From contig JADFMD010000018.1 of NCBI GenBank assembly GCA_022564055.1, forward strand, positions 1-46,026: 46,026 nucleotides of DNA, given 5' to 3'. This document shows, one piece after another, positions 21,972 to 36,102 of this stretch. How positions within the stretch are numbered: position 1 is the first letter of the stretch; every line of letters starts with the position of its first letter. This stretch comes from Gemmatimonadota bacterium (GTDB taxonomy: Bacteria > Gemmatimonadota > Gemmatimonadetes > Longimicrobiales > Gaopeijiaceae). The notes under the pieces were generated by a model. It was given only the letters and a program-made list of their open reading frames with translations, made no database searches and was not told the DNA's origin. The translations under genes were made by a program, and so were the position numbers.

Positions 21972-22247
21972 CTAGAACTCGCTGATGACGGCCAATACGA
22001 GGATGAATGCCAAAGGGAGCGGCGAGATCGCCAGAATCCACAAGCGGGCCGGCTCATACCGTAGATGCATGTAATACATCGCGACCAAGACCGCCTTCCA
22101 AACCGCCATGAGGATCAGTCCCAACCCCAACCAGAACTTTGGCACGTTCATGTAAAGAGACATCCCTACCTCGGCCAGCGTGAGCACGAGCAGGACGATC
22201 CAAATCAGGATATAGGGCGGGTGCGCGTGTTCTTCTTGCTCTTCCAT
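21972..22247 (-). CDS. ctaF: Cytochrome c oxidase subunit IV family protein (CtaF/CoxD-like)
   Basis: 91-residue protein with three hydrophobic helices, matching the small subunit IV of bacterial haem-copper oxidases. MEEQEEHAHPPYILIW is followed by LLVLTLAEVGMSLY, then LGLILMAVWKAVLVAMYYMHLRYE, which carries the family K-x-x-L-V-x-x-x-F/Y-MHL signature. I use ATG 22247, since a start further upstream would overlap subunit III without homology. It follows subunit III by 14 bp in the cox operon. Confidence 0.88.
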   Translation of the reverse strand: MEEQEEHAHPPYILIWIVLLVLTLAEVGMSLYMNVPKFWLGLGLILMAVWKAVLVAMYYMHLRYEPARLWILAISPLPLAFILVLAVISEF

Positions 22248-22261
22248 GATTGCTCCCGCCT

Positions 22262-22918
22262 TCAAATTAGGTAGACGATGGTGAACAGGAGAATCCAAAC
22301 GAGATCGACGAAGTGCCAGTAGAGGCCGATCACCTCTACGCCCTCGAGGCTGTCTTGCGTGTAAGCGCCCTGGAGCGACCTGATGTAAACGAAAATCAAA
22401 CAAAAAACGCCGATTGTGACATGGGCCCCGTGGAACCCGGTCATGGCGTAAAAGGTGGCTCCGTAGAGCGGCCCGCCGAGGGAGGGACCCTCGTGGGGAT
22501 TTCCACGGCCCACGGCATGGTAGAGGTCCAGCACCGGCCCGAAGCCCTCCCCCAACAGTGCGTTATACTCGATGGCCTGGACGCCCACGAAGGTCGCTCC
22601 GATCAGGATCGTGGCGAGCAGCCACATCTGGAGGCCCTTCTGGTTCCCCTGTTGGATGGAAGCGAAGGCCTTGACCATCGTCACGGATGAGCAGATCAGA
22701 AGGAAGGTGTTCACCGCGGTCAGGGGTACATTCAGAACGACTCCCGGATCGGTCCAATGGTCCGGGTGGGCGAAACGCAGGATGACGTAGGTCCCGATCA
22801 ACGACGTGAAGAACATCACCTCGCTGAGCAGAAACACCCACATGCCCAACTTCTTGTTGTAGACCATCATCCCTGGCATGGGCTTGCGGTCCATGGTCGT
22901 AACTGCTGCGTCGCTCAT
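22262..22918 (-). CDS. ctaE: Cytochrome c oxidase subunit III
   Basis: 218-residue membrane subunit of the haem-copper oxidase with about five helices, the short form found in many bacteria. Markers are KLGMWVFLLSEVMFF (helix with the conserved Glu), FYAMTGFHGAHVTIG (family motif with TGFHGxHV) and IGLYWHFVDLVWILLFTIVYL near the C-terminus. The gene lies 3 bp downstream of subunit I. Subunit III stabilises proton uptake by subunit I. Confidence 0.95.
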   Translation of the reverse strand: MSDAAVTTMDRKPMPGMMVYNKKLGMWVFLLSEVMFFTSLIGTYVILRFAHPDHWTDPGVVLNVPLTAVNTFLLICSSVTMVKAFASIQQGNQKGLQMWLLATILIGATFVGVQAIEYNALLGEGFGPVLDLYHAVGRGNPHEGPSLGGPLYGATFYAMTGFHGAHVTIGVFCLIFVYIRSLQGAYTQDSLEGVEVIGLYWHFVDLVWILLFTIVYLI

Positions 22919-22921
22919 CCG

Positions 22922-24718
22922 TCAGCCTCCAGGAACGAGTTCGGGGGTCGGAGTTGTAACCGTCTCTCCGCCCGACCCGGTGGTCGCGGGGGGCTCGTCC
23001 TGAGGCCAGTAGTCCTCCTCTCGATCAGGATGGCTGTACTCGTAAGGGCCACGGTACACGGTGGGCATCTCCGGGAAGTTGCCGTGCGGTGGGGGAGATG
23101 GAGTGGTCCACAACAGCGTGTTGGACTTCCAGGGGTTGTTGCCGGCCACCTTACCCTCGCGCAGGCTCCACAGGAAGTTGAACGCGAAGATCATCTGCGT
23201 GGACACGAAGAGGAATATGCTTATCGAGATGAACGTATTCAGAGGCTGTAGCCCCTGTAGGAACTCGTACTGGTTGGGATCGTAGATCCGGCGCATCATC
23301 CCCTGCACACCCAAGTTGTGCATCGGGAAGAAGGCCATGTTGTAGAAGAGGAACGAGAGAGCGAAGTGCACTTTGCCGAGCCCTTCGTTCATCATTCGGC
23401 CGAACATCTTCGGATACCAGAACGTGATCCCTGCGAAAATTCCGAAGAGGCTTCCACCCACGAGAACGTAGTGAAGGTGCGCCACGATGAAGTAGGTATC
23501 GTGGATGTAGATGTCGACGGGAGCCGAGGCCATGAAGATCCCCGATAGCCCTCCGATGATGAAGAGTGCCACGAATGCGACCGCGTGGAGCAGCGGCGTA
23601 TCGAAGTGGATGTTCCCACGCCAGAGCGTGCCCATCCAGTTGAAGGTCTTGATGGCCGAGGGGACCGCGATGACGACGGTCGTCACCACGAAGGTCATGC
23701 CGAGGAGCGGGTTCATGCCGCTCTGGAACATGTGGTGGCCCCAGACGACCCATCCCAAGAAACCGATACTCACCATGGCGACTACCATGGAGTGGTAGCC
23801 GAAGATCGGCTTCCGGGAGCGGCATGCGATGACCTCGGACACGAATCCCATCGCGGGAAGGATCAGGATGTACACCTCGGGGTGACCGAAGAACCAGAAA
23901 ATGTGCTGCCAGAGAAGGGGCTCGCCGCTGCCTTCCGGGCGGAAGAAGGCGGTTCCGATCGTCTGATCGAAGAGGAGCAGAAGCAGGCCGCCCGTAAGAA
24001 TCGGGATCGCCAACAGAAGCAGCCACGCGGTGATGAATATCGACCATGTGGCCAGCGGGATCCGGAACCACGTCATCCCCGGCGCACGCATGTTGATCAC
24101 GGTCGTGACGTAGTTCAAAGCGCCCAGGATCGAGGAGAATCCCAGGACGATCAGAGAGACCAACCAGAGGATCTGGCCCATGTAGACGCCCGTCCACTCA
24201 CCCGAAGTGCTGAGCGGCGCATAGGAGGTCCAACCGGCTCCCGCGGCGCCTCCCTCGACGAAGAAGCTTGCCAGCATGATGAAGCCGGCAACTGGCATGA
24301 TCCAGAAGGACGCCATGTTGATGCGGGGGAACGCCATGTCCTCCGCTCCGATCTGGAGCGGGATCAGGAGATTGCCGAAGACCCCCGCCATGAGCGGCAT
24401 GAGCGCGAAGAACACCATGAAGGTGGCGTGCATCGTGACCAGAGAGTTGTAGAACTCCGGTAGAATGATGCCGCCCGGGGCCATGGTGTCCGGAAAGAGA
24501 ATCCTCAAGGGCATGGGCAGGGGTCGGCCCGGGAAACCGAGTTGCCAGCGAATCATGACCGCGAGCGCTCCGCCCAGCGCCAGGAACATCAGCCCGCCGA
24601 AGAGGAACTGCTTCGCGATCATCTTGTGATCGGTCGAGAAGATGTATTTCCGGATAAAGCTGAGCTCGTGATGTTCAGCGGTTCCAGTGTGTGTTTCCAT
24701 CGCAGTGGTGGTGCTCAT
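22922..24718 (-). CDS. ctaD: Cytochrome c oxidase subunit I (A-type haem-copper oxidase)
   Basis: Catalytic subunit of the terminal oxidase, 598 residues, about 12 helices. It binds haem a, haem a3 and CuB. Visible ligands and pathway residues are TMHATFMVFF (haem a His), GHPEVYILILP (CuB His, channel Glu and cross-linked Tyr, marking an A1-type enzyme), WGHHMF (CuB His pair) and AHLHYVL (haem a3 and a His). A Pro-rich, acidic tail of about 60 residues follows the last helix. The start overlaps the coxB stop (TGATG), so subunits II and I are coupled. Confidence 0.97.
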   Translation of the reverse strand: MSTTTAMETHTGTAEHHELSFIRKYIFSTDHKMIAKQFLFGGLMFLALGGALAVMIRWQLGFPGRPLPMPLRILFPDTMAPGGIILPEFYNSLVTMHATFMVFFALMPLMAGVFGNLLIPLQIGAEDMAFPRINMASFWIMPVAGFIMLASFFVEGGAAGAGWTSYAPLSTSGEWTGVYMGQILWLVSLIVLGFSSILGALNYVTTVINMRAPGMTWFRIPLATWSIFITAWLLLLAIPILTGGLLLLLFDQTIGTAFFRPEGSGEPLLWQHIFWFFGHPEVYILILPAMGFVSEVIACRSRKPIFGYHSMVVAMVSIGFLGWVVWGHHMFQSGMNPLLGMTFVVTTVVIAVPSAIKTFNWMGTLWRGNIHFDTPLLHAVAFVALFIIGGLSGIFMASAPVDIYIHDTYFIVAHLHYVLVGGSLFGIFAGITFWYPKMFGRMMNEGLGKVHFALSFLFYNMAFFPMHNLGVQGMMRRIYDPNQYEFLQGLQPLNTFISISIFLFVSTQMIFAFNFLWSLREGKVAGNNPWKSNTLLWTTPSPPPHGNFPEMPTVYRGPYEYSHPDREEDYWPQDEPPATTGSGGETVTTPTPELVPGG

Positions 24719-25488
24719 CAGTCGTCCTCCGCCGCGGCTTGCTGCTGCGCGAGCCAGTCTTGAAAATCAGCCTGCGAGTGGACGATGACCGTCCCCCCCA
24801 TCGTATAGTGCCCGAGCCCGCAGAGTTCGGCACAAGCCAGGGTAAACTCACCGGTCCGTGTCGCCTCGAACCAGACCAGGGTGCTCATCCCGGGCACCGC
24901 GTCCTGCTTCACCCGGAATTCGGGTAGAAAGAACGAGTGGATCACGTCTTCGGCTTCCAGCTGGACTACAACGGGCCGATCGACCGGGATGTGCAGTACG
25001 TTTAGGGAAAGAAAGTCGTCCGCCGTGCCGAACTGTCCGTCGGCGCCCGCATAGGTGGCGTTCCACTCGAACTGCTTGGCCATCATGTGGATCGGATATG
25101 CGTCGGCCGGGATGAGATTGGGATCACGGATCTCGTCCCAGATGCCCTTGGTGTAGAAGGCCAAAGCCATGACGATGACGAACGTAATCGACGTCCAGAC
25201 AACCTCGGCCTTATTGCTGCCGTGGATGTAATCCGCCTTGCGGTCCTCCTTGTGGCGGTACTTCACCATGAACACCAACAAGGTGATCTCCGTGACGACG
25301 AATATGATACCCGTGATCCAAAGGATCACGAGCCACAGGTTGTCTAGAGTCGGCCCGAACGTCGACACGACGTTGTCCGGCATCACCCAGGAAAGGTCGA
25401 GCCACGAGATGCCGGTTATGACCGACAACCCGATGACCACGGCAAGCATGCCGGCCAGCAACAACCCCATCCGCCAGAAAAAATTCAT
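24718..25488 (-). CDS. ctaC: Cytochrome c oxidase subunit II
   Basis: CuA-bearing subunit that accepts electrons from the soluble donor, 256 residues. An N-terminal hydrophobic segment (LLLAGMLAVVIGLSVI) is followed by two helices, then the periplasmic cupredoxin domain. CuA ligands are visible: H184 (DVIHSFFLPEF), C219, C223, H227 and M230 in CAELCGLGHYTM. No cytochrome c domain is fused, so the enzyme is aa3-like rather than caa3, and needs a separate donor such as the nearby cytochromes or cupredoxin. It is the first gene of the cox series, after a strong terminator. Confidence 0.96.
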   Translation of the reverse strand: MNFFWRMGLLLAGMLAVVIGLSVITGISWLDLSWVMPDNVVSTFGPTLDNLWLVILWITGIIFVVTEITLLVFMVKYRHKEDRKADYIHGSNKAEVVWTSITFVIVMALAFYTKGIWDEIRDPNLIPADAYPIHMMAKQFEWNATYAGADGQFGTADDFLSLNVLHIPVDRPVVVQLEAEDVIHSFFLPEFRVKQDAVPGMSTLVWFEATRTGEFTLACAELCGLGHYTMGGTVIVHSQADFQDWLAQQQAAAEDD

Positions 25489-25539: not shown

Positions 25540-25576
25540 CGCCCACCGGTCCGTTCAAGGAGGGGACCGGTGGGCG
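25540..25576 (-). terminator. Rho-independent terminator between the redox operon and coxB
   Basis: A perfect 13-bp inverted repeat (25540-25552 with 25564-25576) with an 11-nt loop. On the minus strand it is followed by TCTTTCCATT. It lies 11 bp after the stop of the cupredoxin lipoprotein gene and about 50 bp before coxB, so the cox genes probably have their own promoter. Confidence 0.8.
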
Positions 25577-25586
25577 CCGTAACCAC

Positions 25587-26432
25587 TTAGGATGCTTCAG
25601 CGATCGCGTGAAGCTCGACCGGAGCACCGAGCGGCACCACGGCGTTCTGGGCCATGGATGCACTGAAGGTGAAGTTGACCTCGGCGGTCTCACCTGTGGT
25701 GACCGTCACATTCTGGGTCTGGGTTCCGTAGCGCTCGTGCCACGCTTCGATCACGTACTCGCCCGGGGGCAGCGTGGACAGGCTGAACGCGCCACTACCG
25801 TTCGACACGGAGTGAAACGGATGATCGAGCACGCCGATATAGGCGGTCATCCAGCCATGAACGTCGCAACGCAGCGGAACCATGACCTCTGCCGCCCTGA
25901 AGCTGCGCGTGGTCTCCATGGAAACCGGCTGGCTGCTGTTGAAGCCCCGGTTGATGGTGGGCGACGCGTTGATGTTGTGCAGTAGCCCGTCGCTGTTCCT
26001 GATCGTAATGTCCTGGCCTACCATCACGCCCAAAACATGCGGGAGGTAGACACATCCGTTCTGATCCAGCAGAGCCGCAGCGGGCGTCGGGAACTGGAGG
26101 CTCTCCAGCCCTTCTTTCACATAGACGAACACGTTGGCCAGAGCACCGTTGCTGTTTACGACAACTTCCTGGATCATTTGCGGCGACGCGTGTTTATCCG
26201 CACACACGGTTTCGCTGCTCATGTCGATGACGTCCATGCTGGGTGCGTCTCCCTCGAACATGATGGAGCCCGCGATGTTACCCGCCGTGGCCGCATTGAC
26301 CGGGTTTTCCATGGCCGCACCACCACCACCTCCACTGGATGCGCCGCCTCCATCTCCGCCTCCGCAGCCGGCCATGACCAGCAGCATGAGCGTGGGCGCA
26401 ACGACTCCGCGCAACTCAAAACGATTCGACAT
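25587..26432 (-). CDS. Cupredoxin-like lipoprotein with C-terminal beta-sandwich domain
   Basis: 281-residue lipoprotein. A signal peptide ends in the lipobox VMAGC (C23), followed by a Gly/Ser-rich tether. The central domain has likely type 1 copper ligands: H152 in NSDGLLHNI, then C189, H192 and M195 in RCDVHGWM, the cupredoxin C-x2-H-x2-M pattern. C77 and C127 could form a disulfide. The C-terminal part (SNGSGAFSLSTLPPGEYVIEAWHERYG) resembles a carboxypeptidase-regulatory-like fold. The start is supported by GGAGG four nt upstream. It ends the cytochrome operon, directly before the oxidase genes, and could carry electrons to CuA. Confidence 0.8.
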   Translation of the reverse strand: MSNRFELRGVVAPTLMLLVMAGCGGGDGGGASSGGGGGAAMENPVNAATAGNIAGSIMFEGDAPSMDVIDMSSETVCADKHASPQMIQEVVVNSNGALANVFVYVKEGLESLQFPTPAAALLDQNGCVYLPHVLGVMVGQDITIRNSDGLLHNINASPTINRGFNSSQPVSMETTRSFRAAEVMVPLRCDVHGWMTAYIGVLDHPFHSVSNGSGAFSLSTLPPGEYVIEAWHERYGTQTQNVTVTTGETAEVNFTFSASMAQNAVVPLGAPVELHAIAEAS

Positions 26433-26457
26433 TATGCCTCCAATATGAAAAAATGGT

Positions 26458-28059
26458 TCAACTATTCGGTGTCTCGCTTTTTATTTTACCGCTTTGCCGC
26501 TCCCTCTTCTGGGCGCGGCCTACTACCAAAAATCCCAACGCGGCCGTCAAAATCATAGCCAAAGCGGGGGCTACGAATACAGTAGCGGGAGTGGCCTCCT
26601 CGAGGAACAAGAAGTACCAGGAACTGACCGCACCCCTGGTGCCGGATTCTCCGTTGTCTCCATCCCAGGCGAACAAGGCCATCGGAATGGCCTCGCCGAT
26701 CACGAAATCGAGGTCGTTTTCGTCTTCCGTGACGAGTGGTCTCGTGAACATGACCTGCCACTGGCCGTCAGCATGCGAGGCGTCTACGGTAAGGTCTTGC
26801 CCCCCCGATAGGAAGGCCTCGGTGCCGATGCCGCGGGCCTCGCCCTCGAGGGCGCCATCACGGTCACTCTGCCACTGCCAGATATAGACCGGACGCCGGT
26901 TGTCTCCCCTCAGAAAAAACGGCCGCTCCATACCCTCCGGCATCTGCATCGGGAACTGAACCACGAGCTGATCCGGCGTCGGCCCCTCGTCCGGCGGGTC
27001 TCCCTCCTTGGGCTGCATGAGCGCAATTACCTGGGACTTCCAGTCGGCCCACTCGGGATCGGGGCTGTTGTTGGGGTCGCTCCAGGAAACGCGCACGGCG
27101 ACGGTTTCGCCGTCGTGCGCGGCCTGCACCCAAACGCCGTCCACCCGGGGGTGGAACCAGCGCGGCATCACAATGATCTGTCCGGCCAGCGGGAGGTAGG
27201 CGCCCTCGATTTCATCCCACGCCTCGTCGTCGACCGACGACGGAAGCGGAGCGTCCTCGAAGAGAACGCCTCGAACCACCTCGGTGATTCCGGGCGGGTT
27301 GTCCGGAGAAAGACTGCGAACGTAGTGCGCGATAGCCCAGAGCTGTTCGTCGGTGATGACACCCGCGGTGATGACGTCGGCCAAGCTCGGCATGGGTGTG
27401 CCGTCCAGACCCGTCAACAGTCGACGGTAGATGTCCTCGGCCTCTCCGCCGCCGTTGAACAGCCAGTTCTCGGTCAGATCAGCCGCGGGAATCGGAAAGT
27501 CCCCGTCATCGACCAGCGCCGGCGAGGACTCTCCGTCGCCTCGGCCGCCGTCCCCGTGGCACGCCGCGCAATCCGCTACTTCCCGGAACAGCCTCTCACC
27601 TTCAGCGAGCACGTCGGCATTCGACCGGGTGGCGCGACTGAACTCGAGCGGCTGCGGGATCTCGTCGGCAGAGAAGAAGCGCGAAAACGTCTTGAGATAC
27701 TGGACCAGTGCTTCCCTCTCGTCGTTCGAGAGAAGCGCCTCCCACCCCGGCATGGTCGTCCCCGGCATACCCCGATCGATGATGGCGAGAATATCGTCAT
27801 CCGTCGGGAGATCGCCGCTGGCGGTCGTGCGAATCTGGTACAGCGCCTGGGTGAAGTCTCGGGGTCGCGGAAGCATGTAGCCGGCACCGGGTCCATCGCC
27901 GGTCCCATCCAGGCCGTGGCAGCCCGCACACCAGCGCTCATAGGTGACCTGGCCGAGAGCGTCGCCGTCCTGGGCGCTCAGGCTGCCCGAGGCCAGGGCG
28001 GCTGACGCCGCTGCGAACCACACGGCCACGGCCCACCACCTCGTCATTACGGCCATCAT
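26458..28059 (-). CDS. Dihaem cytochrome c with EB_dh (ethylbenzene dehydrogenase-type) haem domain
   Basis: 533-residue exported and anchored protein. A signal peptide (cleavage near SLSAQD) precedes two cytochrome c domains with CAGCH (44-48) and CAACH (164-168). Residues about 255-490 resemble the EB_dh domain, which binds a b-type haem in the gamma subunits of DMSO-reductase-family enzymes (SSVDDEAWDEIEGAYLPL, VRVSWSDPNNSPD and the late FLSGGQDLTVDASHADGQWQV segment). A C-terminal helix (about 498-518) anchors it. The start overlaps the preceding cytochrome gene as ATGA. The combination suggests an electron relay; no molybdoenzyme partner is in the window. Confidence 0.85.
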   Translation of the reverse strand: MMAVMTRWWAVAVWFAAASAALASGSLSAQDGDALGQVTYERWCAGCHGLDGTGDGPGAGYMLPRPRDFTQALYQIRTTASGDLPTDDDILAIIDRGMPGTTMPGWEALLSNDEREALVQYLKTFSRFFSADEIPQPLEFSRATRSNADVLAEGERLFREVADCAACHGDGGRGDGESSPALVDDGDFPIPAADLTENWLFNGGGEAEDIYRRLLTGLDGTPMPSLADVITAGVITDEQLWAIAHYVRSLSPDNPPGITEVVRGVLFEDAPLPSSVDDEAWDEIEGAYLPLAGQIIVMPRWFHPRVDGVWVQAAHDGETVAVRVSWSDPNNSPDPEWADWKSQVIALMQPKEGDPPDEGPTPDQLVVQFPMQMPEGMERPFFLRGDNRRPVYIWQWQSDRDGALEGEARGIGTEAFLSGGQDLTVDASHADGQWQVMFTRPLVTEDENDLDFVIGEAIPMALFAWDGDNGESGTRGAVSSWYFLFLEEATPATVFVAPALAMILTAALGFLVVGRAQKRERQSGKIKSETPNS

Positions 28060-28856
28060 TCTACTTCCCCCTCCCCGCCTTCTTCTTCAAACGTGCGCGG
28101 TTCGTGGCCGGCCTGTTCATATAAAAAGATGATTACGGACCAAATTTCATCTTGGGTGAGGAAGTCCTCCCACGCCGGCATGGCCGAGTTCCACGGAGCC
28201 CCCTCGTTAGGTAGGCCGGGGCCCCCTTTCGCGACCCGCCAGAAGACGTAGCTCTCGGTGAGCTGCGCGATGGTGCCGATATCCTGGAAGCTCACGGGGA
28301 CAGGACTGAATGCGTGCGCGTAATGCCCCTGGCCGTCGAGTCCGTCACCATGACAGGCGATACAGTTCTCATAGTAGACGCGCTTCCCCTCTTCGTAGTG
28401 CTCCTCCATGGAGCCCCGCGAGCGCAACGGATTCTGAAGGCTGCCGAGCTCTAAAGTGGTTCCTTGGAAGTCGATCCGGCCCGGAGGCGCCGGGTGAATC
28501 GAGCGGAGGGTCGTCGGCGCCGCCACGGTGGGTCTCACCTGACTGAAGGTCATAAGGGCAACGAGAATAGGTATCAGCACCATGAGTGAGTTCCGAGCTG
28601 TCTTCAGGTCCGGATCCACCATCACGCGATGCATCGGCTCCTTGAACTCCGCCCAGCGGGCTTCGTTGTCGCTCACCCAGATGAGGATCCCCACGCTCAC
28701 GGTGATGAGATACTGAAGGAGCACGGAATTCGGGATGGGAGCGCTTGCGATTCCGAACAGAGGCGGGATGTAAGCGATTCCAAAATCGAAAAGAAGGTAG
28801 GCCAAGAAGAGGACCACGCCGGCCTGTCCGAGGGGATGCTTCAGGTACTTGCCCAT
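28056..28856 (-). CDS. Membrane-anchored cytochrome c
   Basis: 266-residue protein with three N-terminal membrane helices (around residues 12-36, 44-62 and 89-106) followed by a periplasmic cytochrome c domain with CIACH (165-169) and a likely Met ligand in NSAMPAWEDF. The tail is very acidic. Three helices plus one c-haem recall membrane-bound cytochrome subunits of bc-type complexes, but I see no bis-His haem b pattern. It follows the ActD/cytochrome fusion by 18 bp and overlaps the EB_dh gene. Confidence 0.85.
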   Translation of the reverse strand: MGKYLKHPLGQAGVVLFLAYLLFDFGIAYIPPLFGIASAPIPNSVLLQYLITVSVGILIWVSDNEARWAEFKEPMHRVMVDPDLKTARNSLMVLIPILVALMTFSQVRPTVAAPTTLRSIHPAPPGRIDFQGTTLELGSLQNPLRSRGSMEEHYEEGKRVYYENCIACHGDGLDGQGHYAHAFSPVPVSFQDIGTIAQLTESYVFWRVAKGGPGLPNEGAPWNSAMPAWEDFLTQDEIWSVIIFLYEQAGHEPRTFEEEGGEGEVE

Positions 28857-28874
28857 CGCTATTCTCGTCTCCCC

Positions 28875-30356
28875 TCAGCGTTGGCTTACGAGAAACTGTA
28901 CGACGGCTTCCAACTGACCCGCGGTGAGTTGGCTACCGAATAAGGCAGGCATCAACATCGACATGTCCTCGTAACCTTCTGATGCACCGGCGGTCGGATC
29001 CAGGATCGATTCCCGGATATAGTCGGCATCGACTCGAGCACCGATCCCATCGAACGAGGGACCCATCGGCAAACCCCCGCCGTCCAGTTCGTGGCAGCTG
29101 AGGCATCCGTTGGCGGTCATGATCTCGAGAGGATCCGAAGAGGCACTCGCGGGTCCCGGGGCGCCTGCCGCCGCGGCGGTTGCCGTCGTGCTCGAACCGT
29201 CGTCGCTCGCACCGATGTCCGCCCCCGTTACGGTTACCTCACCACCCAGGGACTGCAAATAGGCCACGAGCGCCCAGATCTGTTCGTTCGAGAGGGAGCG
29301 ACGCATGTCGGGCATGATGGGGTCGAAGCCTTCCACAACGTAGGCGTTCGGCTCCACCATGGAGCTGTAGATATATGCCTTGCAGTCCTCGCCCCCCACG
29401 CGATTCGTGCATCGGACGCCGATGACGCCCGTACCGCTGTGGTCGGTGAGGAGGTTGGGGGCCCGCGTGCCGGTTCCGTGACATGCGAGGCATCCGCCGG
29501 CACCGTTATAGAGAATTTCTCCGGACGCCATCAGTTCGTCAGCGCTCACGTCGGCCCCGAAGCTGAGTGCCAAGGGCACCTCCGACTGTACCTGGGGAAT
29601 GGAATTCGCAACGAGAGTGAAAAGGGCGAGTGTACCGATCACGACCCCGAAGATCTTGAGATTTTCAAACAGCATCGTTCGACGTTCGGATGTCGAGTCG
29701 AGTCCTGAGGGCCCCTGGGCCACCCCCACGAGATCTTCCCGGGTTTCAGATTCCGGGTCGAATTCTGACGACGCACGAGCTATCCCCACCGGATCTCCGG
29801 GGCCGCCAAACCCCGAATCGACTTCTGCCGGTGCATGACCCACCCCGGCCGGATCTTCCCGAAGTTCCGAGGGGTCCTGACCCCTCAGAATGCTCCGGGC
29901 CTGGTCGAGGCGATCCGGCGCCACCGTCACGTAGATCCCGAACTTCCCCGCACTGAACTCCGGATCGTAGACGACCATCGGTTTGATATAGGGAAGGCGG
30001 CTGTTGATGAAAAACCCAATCACGGCGGACAACACACCGAACAAGACCATCATCTCGAACGAGATGATCACGTATGCGGGAATCGAGAGGATCGGCTTGC
30101 CGCCGGTGACCAACGGCCAGTCCATCGAGGTAAACGACGTGAGAGCGAATCCGCCGCCGGCGCCCAAGAGCCCACCCACCAACGCCCAAACCCGGACGGG
30201 ACTCTGATCGTATCCGAGCGCCTCCTCGATGTGATGGTCCGGATAGGGCATATAGGCGGTGATCTTCTTGAGGCCGGCCGCCCGCAACTCCCCGATGGCG
30301 TTCACGGCAGAGTCTACGTAATCGAACGACGCCAGGAGGCCCACGGTGCGGCTCAT
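28875..30356 (-). CDS. ActD-like (DUF3341) protein fused to a dihaem cytochrome c
   Basis: 493-residue fusion. Residues 1-155 match ActD/DUF3341 of alternative complex III: MSRTVGLLASFDYVDSAVNAI, two helices (about 56-77 and 92-117), and KPMVVYDPEFSAGKFGIYVTV. Residues 161-226 are a linker of three degenerate 20-residue repeats. From 228 (MLFENLKIFG) comes a third helix and two c-haem domains, CLACH (289-293) and CLSCH (418-422), separated by an Ala/Ser/Thr-rich stretch. ATG 30356 shares a base with the stop of the CydA-like gene. M228 looks like the old start of a separate cytochrome gene. No ActA, B, C, E or F gene is nearby. Confidence 0.85.
   Translation of the reverse strand: MSRTVGLLASFDYVDSAVNAIGELRAAGLKKITAYMPYPDHHIEEALGYDQSPVRVWALVGGLLGAGGGFALTSFTSMDWPLVTGGKPILSIPAYVIISFEMMVLFGVLSAVIGFFINSRLPYIKPMVVYDPEFSAGKFGIYVTVAPDRLDQARSILRGQDPSELREDPAGVGHAPAEVDSGFGGPGDPVGIARASSEFDPESETREDLVGVAQGPSGLDSTSERRTMLFENLKIFGVVIGTLALFTLVANSIPQVQSEVPLALSFGADVSADELMASGEILYNGAGGCLACHGTGTRAPNLLTDHSGTGVIGVRCTNRVGGEDCKAYIYSSMVEPNAYVVEGFDPIMPDMRRSLSNEQIWALVAYLQSLGGEVTVTGADIGASDDGSSTTATAAAAGAPGPASASSDPLEIMTANGCLSCHELDGGGLPMGPSFDGIGARVDADYIRESILDPTAGASEGYEDMSMLMPALFGSQLTAGQLEAVVQFLVSQR
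29679..29876 (-). repeat. Three degenerate 60-nt repeats in the ActD-cytochrome linker
   Basis: The linker encodes three related units of about 20 residues, beginning REDPAGVGHAPAEVD, GDPVGIARASSEFD and REDLVGVAQGPSGLD. The DNA shows the same period of about 60 nt. The repeats are confined to the junction between the two fused genes. Confidence 0.6.
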
Positions 30357-32158
30357 CAGTCGCCTGCGGCTGGAGCGAGCTCCGGCCCTCCAGGTGACGA
30401 GGAGGCGTCCGCGCCAGCCCCGGCTTCGAACGGTTTTTCGGCCAACCCACCGAGCCAGAAAATGAACGCTACCAGGACGAAGAAGATCAGCACGCAGGCG
30501 GAGATCACGACGGCCGCGTACCCGAGCGCCGGCGTCGCCGCCCATTCACTCGTATCCCGCACGACTTCCCACACATGCCAGTGCTGGCGGATGCCGCTTC
30601 GGGCGAAACCCATGAGACCCATGAGCCATGTGAAGGTGACGGCCAAGATGAAAAGCGCGTACTGGGACCGGGGGGGCATCTGACCCCACCGGATCGCGCC
30701 CCGCGACTTCGCGCCCCGCATCATGAACACATTGATGACGACTACGCCGACGATGGTCGCGATCACCGCTCCCACCTGATAGACCGAAAAACCGATCCGG
30801 ACGATCGCGCTGACGAAGTAGCCGTACACCCCGTAGAACACCACGATGAGCGCCGCGATCACGAACATGGCCCCCTGCACAATGGTGCCGGTCCTGGCCC
30901 ACCTCACGGTCGGTTCGTTGTTCGCGCGCCAGTAGAGCAGGAACGAGAGGAAGGTGGTCAGGATCATGATGTTCACAGCGGTGTTCTTGGCGCTCATGAC
31001 CCCGAGCACACCGAGGAACGGGTGGAGATTACCTCCCATCGCCGCGATTTCTTCCCGGTTCGCGATCATGGTGTGAGGCGTCGCCCACACAATGACGCCC
31101 ACGATGAGCACGACCAGCATGTACTTCGTGTAGGGTGCGAACCGCTCGGCTCCGGGAATCCGTCCCATACCGATCCACAGGTAATAGTTGCCCGTGAGGA
31201 ACAGCACTCCGATCAGAAAGGCCTGAATGATCCAGAGCCAGCTCATGAAACCACCCATCATGGTGATGCCCATCTGCTGGTTGTACTCGTAGATCTCCCG
31301 GCCGAGGTAATAGCCGGCGAAGGGCAAGACGAGGAGCGCGAAGATCGCGATCAGGTTGCCGACGTAGCCCATCCAGTCGTAGTGGGCGCGCTCTTCGTCG
31401 GTTTTGGCTAGCAGGAAGCGGTAGGCCGCGTAAGCTCCCACGATCGCTCCGCCGAAGACGACGTTGGCGATAGCCCGGTGGATGTTGATGGGCATCCAGG
31501 TCGCGTTCGCGAAGGCGCTCCACGCTTGGACCATGCCCGGCGCGGTGTCGGGGCCCACGTCCGCTGGCGGGCTCATCATGTAGGTGAGCCACGAGTTGGC
31601 GATGAGCATCACCGCCGTGCCAAAGACGTTCAGCAGGATCCCCAACGTCAAGTGGCCCAGCTTGGCCCGTCCCCGGTTCCAGCGATCCCAACCGTAGTAG
31701 TACAGGTAGAGGGTGAAGGACTCGAAAAAGAACAGCGCTACGTAGATCCACATGGAGACCTCGAAGATCTCCGCAAGGTAGATCCAGAGGTTCGGGTAAA
31801 TCGTGATGAGGAGGAAGGAGAGGATCGCCCCCCAGATCGCCGTGGCGGAGTACGCCACGAGCAACAGCCGCGTGAACTCCTTCGCGAGCCTATCGTACTT
31901 CGCCTCCCCCCCGAACATGCCCCAGCCCTCGGCGACGACTGCGAACATGGGAACGCCGAGCACGAAGGCGGCGAAGAGAAGATGGACCTGCGCCGCAACC
32001 CAGACGGCGACACGCCCTCCGACTATGGGGAAATCTCCGTAGGTTCGGCCACCAGCAATTTCCTGCGCCCAGGCCACCTCGGCGAACAGGTGAAAGGCCA
32101 GCGCGGAGAGGCTCATAACCGCGAAGAGCCTCAAGCCTTTCGCTCCGCGCTGTTTCAT
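30356..32158 (-). CDS. CydA-like membrane protein without a CydB partner
   Basis: 600-residue, roughly 14-helix protein related to subunit I of cytochrome bd. Shared features are a His early in the first core helix (H59, VHLLFAAFVLG, like the first haem b ligand of CydA), an F-F-E-x8-G-W-D-R pattern (E146, GWDR 156-159), an IANSW segment and H227 (INIHRAIANVV, like the haem b558 His). The CydA GRQPW motif is not seen and no cydB adjoins. An extra N-terminal hydrophobic segment ending AWAQE looks like a signal peptide. The gene is coupled on both sides (ATGA with the radical SAM gene, TGATG with the ActD fusion). It is probably a b-haem quinol-linked electron-transfer subunit rather than an oxygen-reducing oxidase. 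Confidence 0.8.
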   Translation of the reverse strand: MKQRGAKGLRLFAVMSLSALAFHLFAEVAWAQEIAGGRTYGDFPIVGGRVAVWVAAQVHLLFAAFVLGVPMFAVVAEGWGMFGGEAKYDRLAKEFTRLLLVAYSATAIWGAILSFLLITIYPNLWIYLAEIFEVSMWIYVALFFFESFTLYLYYYGWDRWNRGRAKLGHLTLGILLNVFGTAVMLIANSWLTYMMSPPADVGPDTAPGMVQAWSAFANATWMPINIHRAIANVVFGGAIVGAYAAYRFLLAKTDEERAHYDWMGYVGNLIAIFALLVLPFAGYYLGREIYEYNQQMGITMMGGFMSWLWIIQAFLIGVLFLTGNYYLWIGMGRIPGAERFAPYTKYMLVVLIVGVIVWATPHTMIANREEIAAMGGNLHPFLGVLGVMSAKNTAVNIMILTTFLSFLLYWRANNEPTVRWARTGTIVQGAMFVIAALIVVFYGVYGYFVSAIVRIGFSVYQVGAVIATIVGVVVINVFMMRGAKSRGAIRWGQMPPRSQYALFILAVTFTWLMGLMGFARSGIRQHWHVWEVVRDTSEWAATPALGYAAVVISACVLIFFVLVAFIFWLGGLAEKPFEAGAGADASSSPGGPELAPAAGD

Positions 32159-33534
32159 GCCCGTCCCCCTCTTCCCAGGAAAAACGGGAGTTTCTTGGAA
32201 AAGTCGACGGGAAGGCTCCGACGAACCTCCTCCATGACTCCCACATCTACATGCTCATAACCTCGGTCGCGGGCGAACTTCTCGACCCTTCCCATGACGA
32301 CGCCTCGTACAAAGCTCGGGACACCGTCGATCCGGGCGAGGGCCTCCGGGGACCATTCGAGCGCGACCGATTCGGCTTGCCCGTAGGAGACCGACCGGCG
32401 AGAAGCGATGAGCGGTATCTCTCCGGATGGCTCGTATGCGCAGGAGTCATCCGGACCCATGAAGTCGCCACTGTCGGCATAGGCGCGGGCGCGGCAGCCT
32501 CCGCACACTTCCCGATACTCGCACCGTCCGCACCGTCCACCGAGCTCCCCCGACCTGAGCTGAGCCAAAACGGGGGACGACTCCCAGATTTCTTGGAAGC
32601 TCTGTGTCAACAAATCCCCCGCAACCACAGGCATGTAAGGACACGGGGTGACCTTTCCCTCGGGGGTGATGCGCACGTAGTGGACACCGCAAGGGCAGCG
32701 AGTCTCATAGTTCAGGAGGGGAGACTCCGGGTCGCCCTGGACCACGTGCCGCATGATTTGGGGTTGGCACTTCGATCGGACCATCATGCGGCCGCGATAC
32801 GTGCCCTCCAGCTCGACGAGTTCCCGCAGGACGTCGTCGTTCTCTGCGGGACTCATGCCCTGCATATGCTCTGCGCGCCCAGTCGGGACCACAAAGTAGA
32901 CGTTGAAGGATACAGCCCCCGCCTCGGCCGACCAGCGGGCCAAATCTGCGATTTCGTGACGGTTACCGGTTGTGACGGTGGTCTGAATGACGAAATCGAG
33001 CTCATGGGCAGAGCACCGCTCGACCGCAGCCATCGTGTCCTTGAGTGCGCCCCCCCCGTGGCGGAAGCGGTCATGATACTCGGGACGGAGCGAGTCGATA
33101 CTGACGGCGACGCCTTTGACGCCGGCCGCCATCAGAGAGTCGATGCGCTCATCGGTCAGCCGCGTGCCGTTGGTGCCGACCACGACCGTGGCGCCCCCCG
33201 CCGAGGCTCGCTCCGCGAGCGTTTCCAGGTCGTCTCGCAGGAGGGGCTCCCCCCCCGTAAGGATCAGCATGGGGTTGGGGTTCACGTCGAGAATCTCATC
33301 CAGGATCCGCAGGCATTGATCCGTGGGGAGCTCATCGTCGGCGGTGTGCCAGGAACCCGCCGAGATATAACAGTGCGCGCACGCCAGGTTGCATCGTTTC
33401 GTGAGGTTCCACGCCACGATATGCGGGATGTAGGGTCCACGCTCACGGCTCGGTGAGACCGTCTCAAACACTCCCGGGGCGGGAGGCGCCAGAGTTGCCG
33501 GGGAGGAGGACCTGAGATCGGCTGCGCTGCTCAC
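32155..33534 (-). CDS. SPASM-domain radical SAM protein (NirJ/AhbC-AhbD-like) with PCP_red-like C-terminus
   Basis: 459-residue radical SAM enzyme. The CNLACAHCY motif binds the SAM 4Fe-4S cluster and LILTGGEPLLR is the GGE motif. A SPASM region of about eight cysteines follows (CPCGVHYVRITPEGKVTPC, CGRCEYREVCGGC, then DDSC). Closest in style are the haem d1/alternative haem synthesis enzymes NirJ, AhbC and AhbD, which act on tetrapyrrole side chains; peptide-modifying SPASM enzymes are the alternative. Residues about 393-441 form a PCP_red-like domain (EWSPEALARIDGVPSFVRG). It starts with GTG inside the stop of the Usp gene and overlaps the CydA-like gene, so its product likely serves that complex. 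Confidence 0.85.
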   Translation of the reverse strand: MSSAADLRSSSPATLAPPAPGVFETVSPSRERGPYIPHIVAWNLTKRCNLACAHCYISAGSWHTADDELPTDQCLRILDEILDVNPNPMLILTGGEPLLRDDLETLAERASAGGATVVVGTNGTRLTDERIDSLMAAGVKGVAVSIDSLRPEYHDRFRHGGGALKDTMAAVERCSAHELDFVIQTTVTTGNRHEIADLARWSAEAGAVSFNVYFVVPTGRAEHMQGMSPAENDDVLRELVELEGTYRGRMMVRSKCQPQIMRHVVQGDPESPLLNYETRCPCGVHYVRITPEGKVTPCPYMPVVAGDLLTQSFQEIWESSPVLAQLRSGELGGRCGRCEYREVCGGCRARAYADSGDFMGPDDSCAYEPSGEIPLIASRRSVSYGQAESVALEWSPEALARIDGVPSFVRGVVMGRVEKFARDRGYEHVDVGVMEEVRRSLPVDFSKKLPFFLGRGGRA

Positions 33535-35696
33535 GCTTCGCTGGGTTCCTTGCTCATGAATTGCTCGATCGCGGCCTTGGCGTCCTTTGGTGAGACGGTC
33601 TTGAAGTCCACCGGGCAGTTCTCGGTGGCCTCGGCCACGTCCCGAATCGGGCAGCGGTCAACGCCGCTGGCCTTGGCCTCCTCGATGAATTTGCGCATCT
33701 CGGGAGTCAAACCGTCGACGCCCTCGGCTGCCGCCTTGATCTGCTTGGTCTGGAGTTCGCGGAACATGACCAACATGGTGTCCATGTCGAACTCGTCGGC
33801 CTCGATCATGGCCTGCTTGTTCTCATCCATCACAGGCGTGGTGACCCTCCAGAAATCGTGCTCACGCGCAAAGCGCTCCACCGTGTTGCGGGCCAGGGGC
33901 CTCGCGATCAACGGCACCAGCTTGAGTCGCTCGAAGGCCTCCTGGGTCCATTGGACCGGGTCGGCCGCAGTCCGCTCACGCGTGAGCGGGTGACCGCTGT
34001 GCGGGCAGGTGGCGGTGATCATGGGGACGTCCGGCTCCGGGTCGGCATCCACGCCGCTGACCAGCGTCCGCTTCATCGCCTCTTCGGCCTTGACCTCGGC
34101 GAGGACGAGTTCTTCGGCTGTTCCGATCCCCATGATCAACTGCATGTGGGTCGGAAGCAGCTTCGTGATGGCCTCGTCGAGGCGAGCACTGGTGACCATC
34201 GGGAGGCCGCCCGCACCGAGCGGGGGTACCGACGTGCCCGGACTGGCGCCATCGGTGGCGGCCTCGGTTCCGGTGAGGGTCGCCCCTTCGTCGTTGGCCG
34301 AGACGCCGTTGGACGAGGATCCGTTGGCCGAGGTGCCGTTCGACGCGGCCTGCACGATGGCCTCATCCCGGTACACGCCGTTGGCTCCTGGGCCGTAATT
34401 ATCGAGCGTGAATTCTTCCACGGCTTTGCGGGCGATTCCGAGTGCGAACGGCGGTACCCGGAGGATCCGGACTTCGGCCTCAGGCGCCCACTCGAGCCCG
34501 GTCTCGCCGTCTTCTTCGATCCATGGGATGTCGTCCGGGCGCACATCGGTGATGCCGATGAGCAGGATGTTCGTCTGCACGAGCCGGCACAGGTTCTCCG
34601 CCTGAGAGCCCATGTCGGTACCCTCGATCCGGTGCCCACCATGGCGGGCGAAGACCAGAAGGCTGGGGTTGATTTCCTCGACCCACTGAAGGATGCATTG
34701 GAACGGCTTGCCGACGAGGATCTGAGTCTCGACCTCGACGTCGGGAAAGTCCTCAGCCATCACCTCCGCCCTCTTGAGGTTGGCCTGCGCCAGCTTCAGA
34801 AGACCCTTGTCGATGATGTTGTTATGGAGTTCTTCCTGCTCCTCGAACTTGAAGACTTTCGAGGCCTGGACGGAAAGAATGTCCTTGATGTTACCGAAGA
34901 CGGCGTGGTGATACTCCACGTCGAAAGCCGAGCACACATGGAGCTTCGCCCCGAACTCCCGGGCCATCTCCAAAGTCTGCCTCATGGCCTTGTACGCGTA
35001 CGAGGAACCGTCGACACAGACGATCCAGTCGCCACCTGCGAGTGGGCGATCGTCCTTGACGATCAGCGTGTCCTTTTCAACCTGGCGGATGACCCGCGAT
35101 ACCATCCCGCCCAACTGTGAGGCGGGCTGCTTTCCGATCCCGTGGGCACCGATTACGAGGAGGTCATATTCACGCCCACTGGACCCAGCCAGCTTCTCGT
35201 CCTGCTCCTCGTCCTCGGCGACGATCCGCCCGTCCTCGTCCACGATGACATCGCTACGGACGGTGTCACCGCCGTCGTACTTGTCCGCGATGTTGGGGTC
35301 GAAGCCGATCAAGCTGGGAAGGCGGCCGAGGCCTCGGTTGGCCTCCCGAACCACCTCCTCGTAATGGATGCCCTCGAGGAGCTGCCGGGTCAGCGGTACG
35401 CCCGCCGCCTCACAACTGATGGCGGTCTGATCGAGAAAGGAGTCCGAGATGAGCTGCAGCCCCTTCTCGATCAGTTTGTCGTGAATTTTTCGCTGCCGCT
35501 TGATCTCCTTGGCGGATTGAAACTGGGCGGGAAGTCCCGTCTCCAACTGGCGAAACCGCACATCATGAAGGCGCGCCGCATACACATGGTTACCGGTGAT
35601 CCGTCCCTCGAAGCGCTTACAGATCTCGATGGCGCGGTCCACGGCCCAATAGGCATGAGCGGAATTATCGACGGGTACGAAGAGTTCACGGTACAT
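33531..35696 (-). CDS. Tandem universal stress protein domains fused to a PCP_red-like domain
   Basis: About 721 residues. Two UspA-like nucleotide-binding domains lie in the N-terminal half (YRELFVPVDNSAHAYWAVD... and DWIVCVDGSSYAYKAMR...), each ending near a G-x-H-G-type loop (VIGAHGIGKQP and VFARHGGHRIEG). A Ser/Asn/Gly-rich linker (SANGSSSNGVSAND) follows. The C-terminal part has TCPHSGHPL, then a PCP_red-like segment (QWTQEAFERLKLVPLIARPL, about 583-633) and two further Cys-Pro pairs (RCPIRD, NCPVDF). ATG 35696 is preferred over a GTG two codons upstream. First gene of the CydA-like operon, behind a long leader. Confidence 0.8.
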   Translation of the reverse strand: MYRELFVPVDNSAHAYWAVDRAIEICKRFEGRITGNHVYAARLHDVRFRQLETGLPAQFQSAKEIKRQRKIHDKLIEKGLQLISDSFLDQTAISCEAAGVPLTRQLLEGIHYEEVVREANRGLGRLPSLIGFDPNIADKYDGGDTVRSDVIVDEDGRIVAEDEEQDEKLAGSSGREYDLLVIGAHGIGKQPASQLGGMVSRVIRQVEKDTLIVKDDRPLAGGDWIVCVDGSSYAYKAMRQTLEMAREFGAKLHVCSAFDVEYHHAVFGNIKDILSVQASKVFKFEEQEELHNNIIDKGLLKLAQANLKRAEVMAEDFPDVEVETQILVGKPFQCILQWVEEINPSLLVFARHGGHRIEGTDMGSQAENLCRLVQTNILLIGITDVRPDDIPWIEEDGETGLEWAPEAEVRILRVPPFALGIARKAVEEFTLDNYGPGANGVYRDEAIVQAASNGTSANGSSSNGVSANDEGATLTGTEAATDGASPGTSVPPLGAGGLPMVTSARLDEAITKLLPTHMQLIMGIGTAEELVLAEVKAEEAMKRTLVSGVDADPEPDVPMITATCPHSGHPLTRERTAADPVQWTQEAFERLKLVPLIARPLARNTVERFAREHDFWRVTTPVMDENKQAMIEADEFDMDTMLVMFRELQTKQIKAAAEGVDGLTPEMRKFIEEAKASGVDRCPIRDVAEATENCPVDFKTVSPKDAKAAIEQFMSKEPSEA

Positions 35697-36066
35697 AAGC
35701 ACCTCGGGCCTCGGCCCTGATTATCTGACACCCCTCACGTACCGATCGCCCCAAGGCCTTCCGTCGCCCATGAGGGCGGCGGACCTCCGTCCTCGAAGCC
35801 GGCGGGACATCCGTGTGCGATCTGGTTCGGTCTAGAGGCGCGCAGTGGTAGTCAAAATTTCAATACAAAGAAGGGGTACCGATCACCCGGCGCAACCGAG
35901 GGTCGTCTGAAACAAAACCAGCCTCCCGAATTCTCGGGTCGAGCACCGCTGAAGCGGGGGTCCCGACCGCGAGTTTCGACCCCGCTGGCACAGCGTTCGG
36001 ATCAGTGAAAGCAAGGTCCTTCGCGCCCTGAAAATGGGCGCTTGTTCCAAATGGTGCATGTCGTGC
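35697..36066 (-). ncRNA. Long structured 5' leader of the CydA-like operon (candidate cis-regulatory RNA)
   Basis: About 370 nt between the predicted transcription start and the Usp/PCP_red start codon with no convincing gene. On the transcript it contains several stems: GCGCCC/GGGCGC around 36030, a long imperfect stem AGCGGGGTC/GACCCCCGCT (35953-35986) and CCCGAGAATTCGGG near 35930. It does not match any riboswitch class I can recognise. A short reading frame of 58 codons (ATG near 36059) exists but lacks protein-like character. Confidence 0.35.
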
Positions 36067-36072
36067 GAAGTG

Positions 36073-36102
36073 AGTATACCGGACCCTTCTCAGGGCTGTC
36101 AA
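36073..36102 (-). promoter_or_regulatory. Near-consensus sigma70 promoter for the CydA-like operon
   Basis: On the minus strand TTGACA (36102-36097) and TATACT (36078-36073) are separated by 18 nt. Both hexamers are near or at consensus, which makes this the strongest promoter I see in the window. It reads toward the Usp/PCP_red gene and lies just after the ABC permease stop at 36136. Confidence 0.75.

Follow-up and report, generated by a model that had tools for sequence, protein, structure and literature searches.

The role of the CydA-like 'bd-like oxidases' of nitrite oxidisers and anammox bacteria has been an open question for more than ten years. An operon of a Gemmatimonadota bacterium (contig JADFMD010000018.1, assembly GCA_022564055.1), lying in a stretch of 46,026 nucleotides which we call the window, raises this question in another form: what does such a CydA-like membrane protein (CydAL) do, together with its cytochromes, where no nitrite oxidoreductase (NXR) was found and where its genes share an operon with those of the one haem-copper oxidase that the genome was found to encode? 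Our analysis showed that the module is of a type known from NXR clusters, here in a different context, in which a gene fusion points to alternative complex III (ACIII) and the operon points to an aa3 oxidase. What is new is that the only ActD gene of the genus has moved out of the ACIII operon and has been fused to the dihaem cytochrome of the module.

Conservation of the operon and its link to the aa3 oxidase

Open reading frame (ORF) and Pfam checks confirmed the seven coupled genes of the initial annotation and their named domains, all on the minus strand between 25587 and 35702. Four of the junctions are 4-nt overlaps, and the remaining two are gaps of 18 and 25 nt. The order begins with a Usp2-PCP_red gene and a radical SAM gene, followed by the genes of CydAL, a dihaem cytochrome c (here fused to ActD), a monohaem cytochrome c, a dihaem EB_dh cytochrome and a cupredoxin-type lipoprotein.

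CydAL was searched against 298 genomes of the phylum Gemmatimonadota, and 37 loci were read for gene order. The matches fell into two well separated groups. About 80 genomes had homologues that were mostly 71–84% identical, and the second group consisted of remote canonical CydA proteins with about 23–31% identity. All ten genes, Usp2-rSAM-CydAL-dihaem c-monohaem c-EB_dh-cupredoxin-cox2-cox1-cox3, were present in one order and on one strand in 31 of the 37 loci. In the other six the detected genes were all in order, and most of the missing genes fall beyond the end of the contig or stretch; at L072 the radical SAM gene was not called. The recurrence of the complete ten-gene order in 31 of 37 relatives means that the arrangement is not due to chance. 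The initial annotation had named a lack of such conservation as a refutation, and it passed this check. The cluster runs into cox2-cox1-cox3 in each relative whose contig extends far enough.

The search of the window genome went family by family; its assembly is 87% complete, so absences from it are provisional. It has one copy of COX1 only, in this operon. No PF02322 (CydB) match and no second CydA were found in it, the single PF01654 protein being CydAL, which agrees with the initial annotation in this respect. A normal bd oxidase with its CydB elsewhere and a CydAA' pair were rejected on these grounds.

Downstream of the cupredoxin gene, after a gap of 98 nt, lie cox2 (24718..25488, minus strand), cox1 (22922..24718, minus strand; the sole haem-copper oxidase subunit I detected) and cox3 (22262..22918, minus strand), all assigned by Pfam. 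Cox2 has the CuA motif CAELCGLGHYTM and no cytochrome c domain, and therefore needs an external electron donor. Electrons very probably pass through the cytochromes of the module to the adjacent aa3 oxidase, a transfer which the initial annotation had already suggested.

ACIII and the ActD fusion

The initial annotation took the operon for a substitute for bc1 or ACIII. This is rejected for the window genome, in which contig C257 carries ActA-ActB-ActC-ActE-ActF, ActE following directly on ActC; the genome also has a lone cytochrome b. At L037:7005-7901 (contig C38) a lone cytochrome b gene of 298 aa was seen, and neither a Rieske nor a cytochrome c gene could be recognised beside it. ActD was found in 286 of the 298 genomes, which indicates that ACIII is near universal in the phylum. 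This number contrasts with a KEGG-based survey, in which ACIII was reported in fewer than 10% of Gemmatimonadota (PMC9426454).

The sole ActD of the window genome is the one in the CydAL operon (28875..30359, minus strand), where it is fused to a membrane-anchored dihaem cytochrome c (ActD, PF11821, 1e-41, plus two cytochrome c domains). It is the only member of the ACIII set there, ActA, B, C, E and F being absent from this operon. The ACIII operon reads A-B-C-E-F without ActD in all three genomes of the genus (g1: the window genome, G241 and G265), and ActD lies between ActC and ActE in nine of nine other genomes examined. G241 has the same fusion with 71% identity, so an assembly artefact is unlikely. 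The assembly of G265 breaks inside CydAL; the site is thus covered in two g1 genomes, and in both of them the sole ActD is the one joined to the dihaem cytochrome c. The fusion is limited to this genus, and in most relatives the dihaem cytochrome c begins where the third transmembrane (TM) segment of the fusion begins (residue 229). It is thus a property of the genus and was rejected as a defining subunit of the complex, as it had originally been presented.

The fused ActD is 64–71% identical to the ACIII ActD of family-mates and has Glu102 in its second transmembrane helix (TMH2), apparently the counterpart of Glu122 of R. marinus. It therefore looks functional. In R. marinus both termini of ActD are cytoplasmic, and the key Glu (Glu122) lies in an inner helix (PMC5928083). 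With a cytoplasmic C terminus, the linker and one TM segment would bring the haems to the periplasmic side. The AlphaFold model of the fusion agrees with this and shows an ActD fold (1-170), a disordered region (177-220), a TM helix (about 222-253) and the c domains. The pTM of 0.42 is expected from the flexible linkage.

CydAL and ACIII genes also meet in other lineages. At two loci of Acidobacteria (L146:5252-11707 and L155:5221-11674), ActA-ActB-ActE directly precede CydAL, and in L146 cox2-1-3 lie upstream of these. No ActC, ActD, ActF or NrfD-type gene was found in either cluster, and both genomes carry NrfD and ActD elsewhere. CydAL occupies the usual place of the NrfD-type subunits in these clusters. 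Previous studies have indicated that OR-N5 genes of Nitrospirales adjoin act genes (PMC12342949) and that TO_3/TO_4 of Manganitrophus pair bd-like with complex III or ACIII-like parts (PMC9040806). Such recurrence in lineages apart from one another is the chief reason for thinking that CydAL modules dock on ACIII. Supercomplexes of ACIII and oxidases are also known (PMC5928083).

Proposed electron path

Tentatively, and with some doubt, we favour the reading that the operon encodes a membrane cytochrome module standing between ACIII and the genome's only haem-copper oxidase, the aa3 enzyme, and physically joining both. It is very likely that the module binds both of them, and the ActD fusion names ACIII as its likely physical partner. 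In the complex that we infer, menaquinol would be oxidised by ACIII, at ActC/ActB and then through the haems of ActA and ActE, and the electrons would be passed to the dihaem cytochrome c, which is tethered to ACIII here since it is fused to ActD. From there they would go to the monohaem cytochrome c, then to the dihaem EB_dh cytochrome and/or the cupredoxin, and on to CuA of Cox2, with Cox1 reducing O2 at the end of the path. CydAL would be the membrane hub of this cytochrome assembly, with b haem(s) on H59 and H227. Its own haems might serve as a scaffold or in proton or quinone coupling, and a purely structural role is possible.

The fusion also hints that ACIII, the CydAL module and the aa3 oxidase work as one machine. 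In such a three-part machine an ACIII subunit would be covalently joined to the bridging dihaem cytochrome c, and electrons would run from menaquinol to O2 without a free carrier; CydAL, in which Tyr has replaced Glu99, would have descended from an O2 reductase and would now serve as an electron-transfer or coupling subunit. We consider this possible but doubtful.

Several points weigh against a module joining ACIII and oxidase. The fusion is present in one genus only, and relocation plus fusion need not imply function. In most relatives ACIII is unfused and lies 30–50 kb off or on other contigs. A pure bridge of 14 transmembrane helices (TMH) would be uneconomical, since ACIII-oxidase pairs elsewhere work without an extra module. 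Finally, outside this phylum the module also stands beside NXR or Aio/Idr-type enzymes and is therefore not tied to ACIII.

Distribution in other phyla

For the cross-phylum scan a clade II query was used, and the 80 loci that ranked best against it were covered; counts across phyla are therefore a sample and not a census. Modules without cox genes were found in anammox bacteria, Nitrospinota, Nitrospirota, Rokubacteria, Chloroflexi, SAR324, alphaproteobacteria and others. The CydAL tree, made with FastTree only and having long branches, consisted of two clades. Clade I includes the window protein, and clade II includes the anammox proteins. Both types occur together, as a tandem with one CydAL of each clade, in many Nitrospinota, Nitrospirota and proteobacteria.

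The neighbouring genes vary. In anammox bacteria and Poribacteria they encode NXR beta/gamma subunits; in SAR324 and alphaproteobacteria, an AioA/IdrA-type molybdoenzyme together with Rieske and MauG/CCP-type dihaem proteins; and in L087, cytochrome b. In Gemmatimonadota and Chloroflexi they are cox genes. At L113, L123, L135, L136, L141 and L142 the CydAL modules, mostly tandem pairs, lie beside the AioA/IdrA-type molybdoenzyme and its Rieske subunit. MauG/CCP-type dihaem proteins are also encoded at these loci except L141, which is truncated, and the clusters resemble those of iodate reductase.

The CydA-like protein

CydAL (30356..32158, minus strand) matched Cyt_bd_oxida_I (PF01654) with 2e-16. 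Its AlphaFold2 model, made from 47 sequences, has about 13–14 membrane helices (pLDDT 87.7, pTM 0.86), and Foldseek against the PDB gave ten significant matches, all of them CydA of bd oxidases. We then compared its residues with those of E. coli CydA, taken from MG1655, in an alignment of about 106 sequences. The equivalents of H19, E107, N148, H186 and R448 are fully or almost fully conserved, and the haem-ligand positions H59 (= H19) and H227 (= H186) are invariant. Six His residues in total are invariant or nearly so. The position of E99 is Tyr139, and it was Tyr in 105 of the 105 sequences covering the site. The position of E445 is Leu515 by alignment, or the invariant Arg520 by eye, and is never Glu. 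M393, the second ligand of haem b558, corresponds to Ser450 in the window protein and to Met in 67 of 106 sequences, in a region that aligns poorly. The Q-loop residues K252/E257, which are for quinol, are replaced by Met296/Met301, and this Met/Met pair was found in 103–106 of the 106 sequences. No recognisable quinol site was therefore present in CydAL by this comparison. Since the active-site haem pair lacks a ligand and no quinol site is recognisable, an O2 reductase and a quinol oxidase are each weakened as readings of CydAL. Its haem content, too, is judged from these residues, and b haem(s) on H59 and H227 would be the expected complement.

These residues bear on two other explanations. 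The first is that CydAL is an OR-N-type, cytochrome c-driven O2 reductase. It would then be a second terminal oxidase, receiving electrons from the dihaem and monohaem cytochromes c and co-expressed with aa3 from one operon. Relatives in Nitrospinota and Nitrospirales are currently annotated as OR-N CydAA' (PMC10839748, PMC12342949), and the CydA fold, the five near-invariant positions and the absence of quinol residues agree with it. However, Tyr at E99 and the lack of Glu at E445 would leave the active-site haem pair without its ligand and proton residues. In addition, OR-N1/OR-N2 pairs are thought to be necessary, yet a single CydA homologue was found in the genome; strictly anaerobic anammox bacteria are among those with clade II homologues; and the linkage to a haem-copper oxidase would make a second oxidase redundant. 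We regard this explanation as unlikely.

The second is that the module itself is a quinol:cytochrome c oxidoreductase, in which the b haems of CydAL oxidise menaquinol and the c haems pass the electrons to aa3. A b-type membrane candidate, c haems and an oxidase are indeed combined within a single operon, and for the NXR-linked homologue a similar role had been put forward in 2013 (PMC3578206). The module also stands beside enzymes as varied as NXR, Aio/Idr and haem-copper oxidases, as a shared quinone-side partner might, and in L146/L155 CydAL follows ActA-ActB-ActE in a cluster without an NrfD-type gene. But the quinol residues K252/E257 are replaced by Met/Met, ACIII is present in the window genome and almost throughout the phylum, and the L146/L155 genomes have NrfD/ActD genes elsewhere. 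The direct oxidation of quinol by CydAL, which had been the initial proposal, thus found no positive evidence, and this explanation is quite unlikely.

A module carrying electrons from ACIII to the aa3 oxidase remains our preferred reading. The occurrence of the same module here argues against the annotation of each CydA-like gene of this type as a terminal oxidase.

Cytochromes and cupredoxin

The seven-gene block has five CxxCH motifs (2 + 1 + 2), the number first reported, and every one of them is paired with an invariant Met. The dihaem cytochrome c matches Kustd1711 (7zs0), an NXR-cluster cytochrome for which about +350 mV has been measured (PMC11791136). The membrane monohaem cytochrome c (28056..28856, minus strand) has three N-terminal TM segments, a Pfam cytochrome c domain and the invariant H169/M226.

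The third cytochrome (26458..28059, minus strand) consists of two cytochrome c domains, an EB_dh (NxrC-like) domain and a C-terminal TM segment according to Pfam. Its N-terminal half matches the solved dihaem cytochrome chain 6h5l_B, which we take to be of Kuenenia origin, and its C-terminal half matches NxrC (7b04_C). The haem b ligands of NxrC are Met155 and Lys305 (PMC8387239). In the alignment the window protein has Arg384 at the position of the Met and Gly at that of the Lys. Anammox homologues retain both ligands, and the Met persists in many relatives. The EB_dh domain as a working haem b carrier is therefore disfavoured in the window.

The last gene of the block (25587..26432, minus strand) encodes a lipoprotein with a lipobox, a cupredoxin-type copper site and a CarboxypepD_reg-like domain. 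The type 1 copper site of the initial annotation stands, since its four ligands, H152, C189, H192 and M195, are invariant in 34 homologues. Pfam gave no cupredoxin match for this gene, and a PDB search with the protein gave chance matches only.

Neither the conserved ten-gene block nor the PF00384 matches of the window genome yielded an NXR; the molybdopterin proteins of this genome, read by eye, look like ActB, NuoG and formate dehydrogenase. At G000 contig C3:5793-7417 a molybdopterin gene resembling formate dehydrogenase has an in-frame TGA that may encode selenocysteine. That the module drains a periplasmic donor of some unspecified kind (like nitrite in NXR organisms) into aa3, with the ACIII link being incidental, is highly improbable: homologous modules do adjoin NXR or Aio/Idr-type enzymes and the EB_dh cytochrome is a relative of NxrC, but the ten-gene block has no dehydrogenase gene, the molybdopterin proteins that were found look like types other than NXR, and the NxrC-like domain has lost its b-haem ligands.

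Other features of the locus

The order is headed by the Usp2-PCP_red gene (33531..35702, minus strand; ATG at 35696 likely), with tandem universal stress protein domains and a PCP_red domain in Pfam. It is followed by a gene for a radical SAM/SPASM protein with a C-terminal PCP_red domain (32155..33534, minus strand; Pfam). NirJ2/AhbD-type families were nearest to the latter, with all scores under their cut-offs, and its Cys set is kept in 17 homologues across phyla. Both of these proteins (window 32155-35702) accompany CydAL modules in several phyla. The PCP_red domain is otherwise known from a tetrapyrrole enzyme. The NirJ/AhbD-like protein and the PCP_red domains might mature an unusual haem for CydAL.

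A 13-bp inverted repeat (25540..25576, minus strand) with a loop of about 11 nt lies between the cupredoxin gene and cox2. The initial annotation described it as a terminator closing the operon. The hairpin is present, but it does not close the operon: its T tail is weak, the terminator scan gave no call at 25540-25576, and the functional unit runs past it into cox2, cox1, cox3 and cox4 on the same strand. The repeat is kept in the genus-mate G241 and not in G122. The cox4 gene (21972..22403, minus strand) was identified by a family match (COX4_pro); it overlaps the end of cox3, and its true start is uncertain. Upstream of the cluster, a promoter-like TTGACA-18-TATACT (36073..36102, minus strand) has 11 of 12 matches, with a regional count no higher than in shuffles.

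Comparison with known systems

CydAL has the CydA fold and the H19/H186 ligands in common with canonical CydAB, but E99, E445, K252/E257 and CydB are absent. It shares with the OR-N/CydAA' families a CydA homologue that lacks CydB and a quinol site and has adjoining cytochrome c genes; it differs in being a single CydA homologue with no A' partner in the genome. TO_3/TO_4 of Ca. Manganitrophaceae combine a bd-like protein with complex III or ACIII-like components (PMC9040806). These belong to Mn-oxidising Nitrospirota and are compared by description only, and the parts of that paper describing them mention no link to aa3 oxidase genes.

The closest system is the 'bd-like oxidase' module of the NXR clusters of Nitrospina, Nitrospira and Kuenenia. 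Luecker et al. (2013, PMC3578206) noted that its CydA-like protein has 14 TMH, with three helices where the Q-loop would be, and considered a role like that of ACIII possible; a study of N. moscoviensis suggested complexes and supercomplexes (PMC6606698). The complex is thus not undescribed, as had been supposed, and the central idea of the initial annotation has a precedent in the ACIII-like role proposed in 2013. Both modules have a 14-TMH CydA-like protein without quinol residues, a dihaem c, a monohaem c, an alternative NxrC (EB_dh with c haems) and a cupredoxin. The same set was seen in our anammox, Nitrospinota and Nitrospirota loci, and the Usp/PCP_red and radical SAM genes are often present as well. 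Unlike the NXR-cluster module, that of the window has no NXR and is joined to aa3 cox genes, its EB_dh domain lacks the haem b ligands, and ActD is fused to the dihaem c in genus g1.

The window genome also resembles those encoding the ACIII-aa3/caa3 supercomplexes of R. marinus and F. johnsoniae (PMC5928083) in its ActD with a Glu in TMH2, its ACIII genes and its oxidase partner. It differs from them in that ActD lies in another operon, fused to a cytochrome, and in that an extra CydAL module is encoded.

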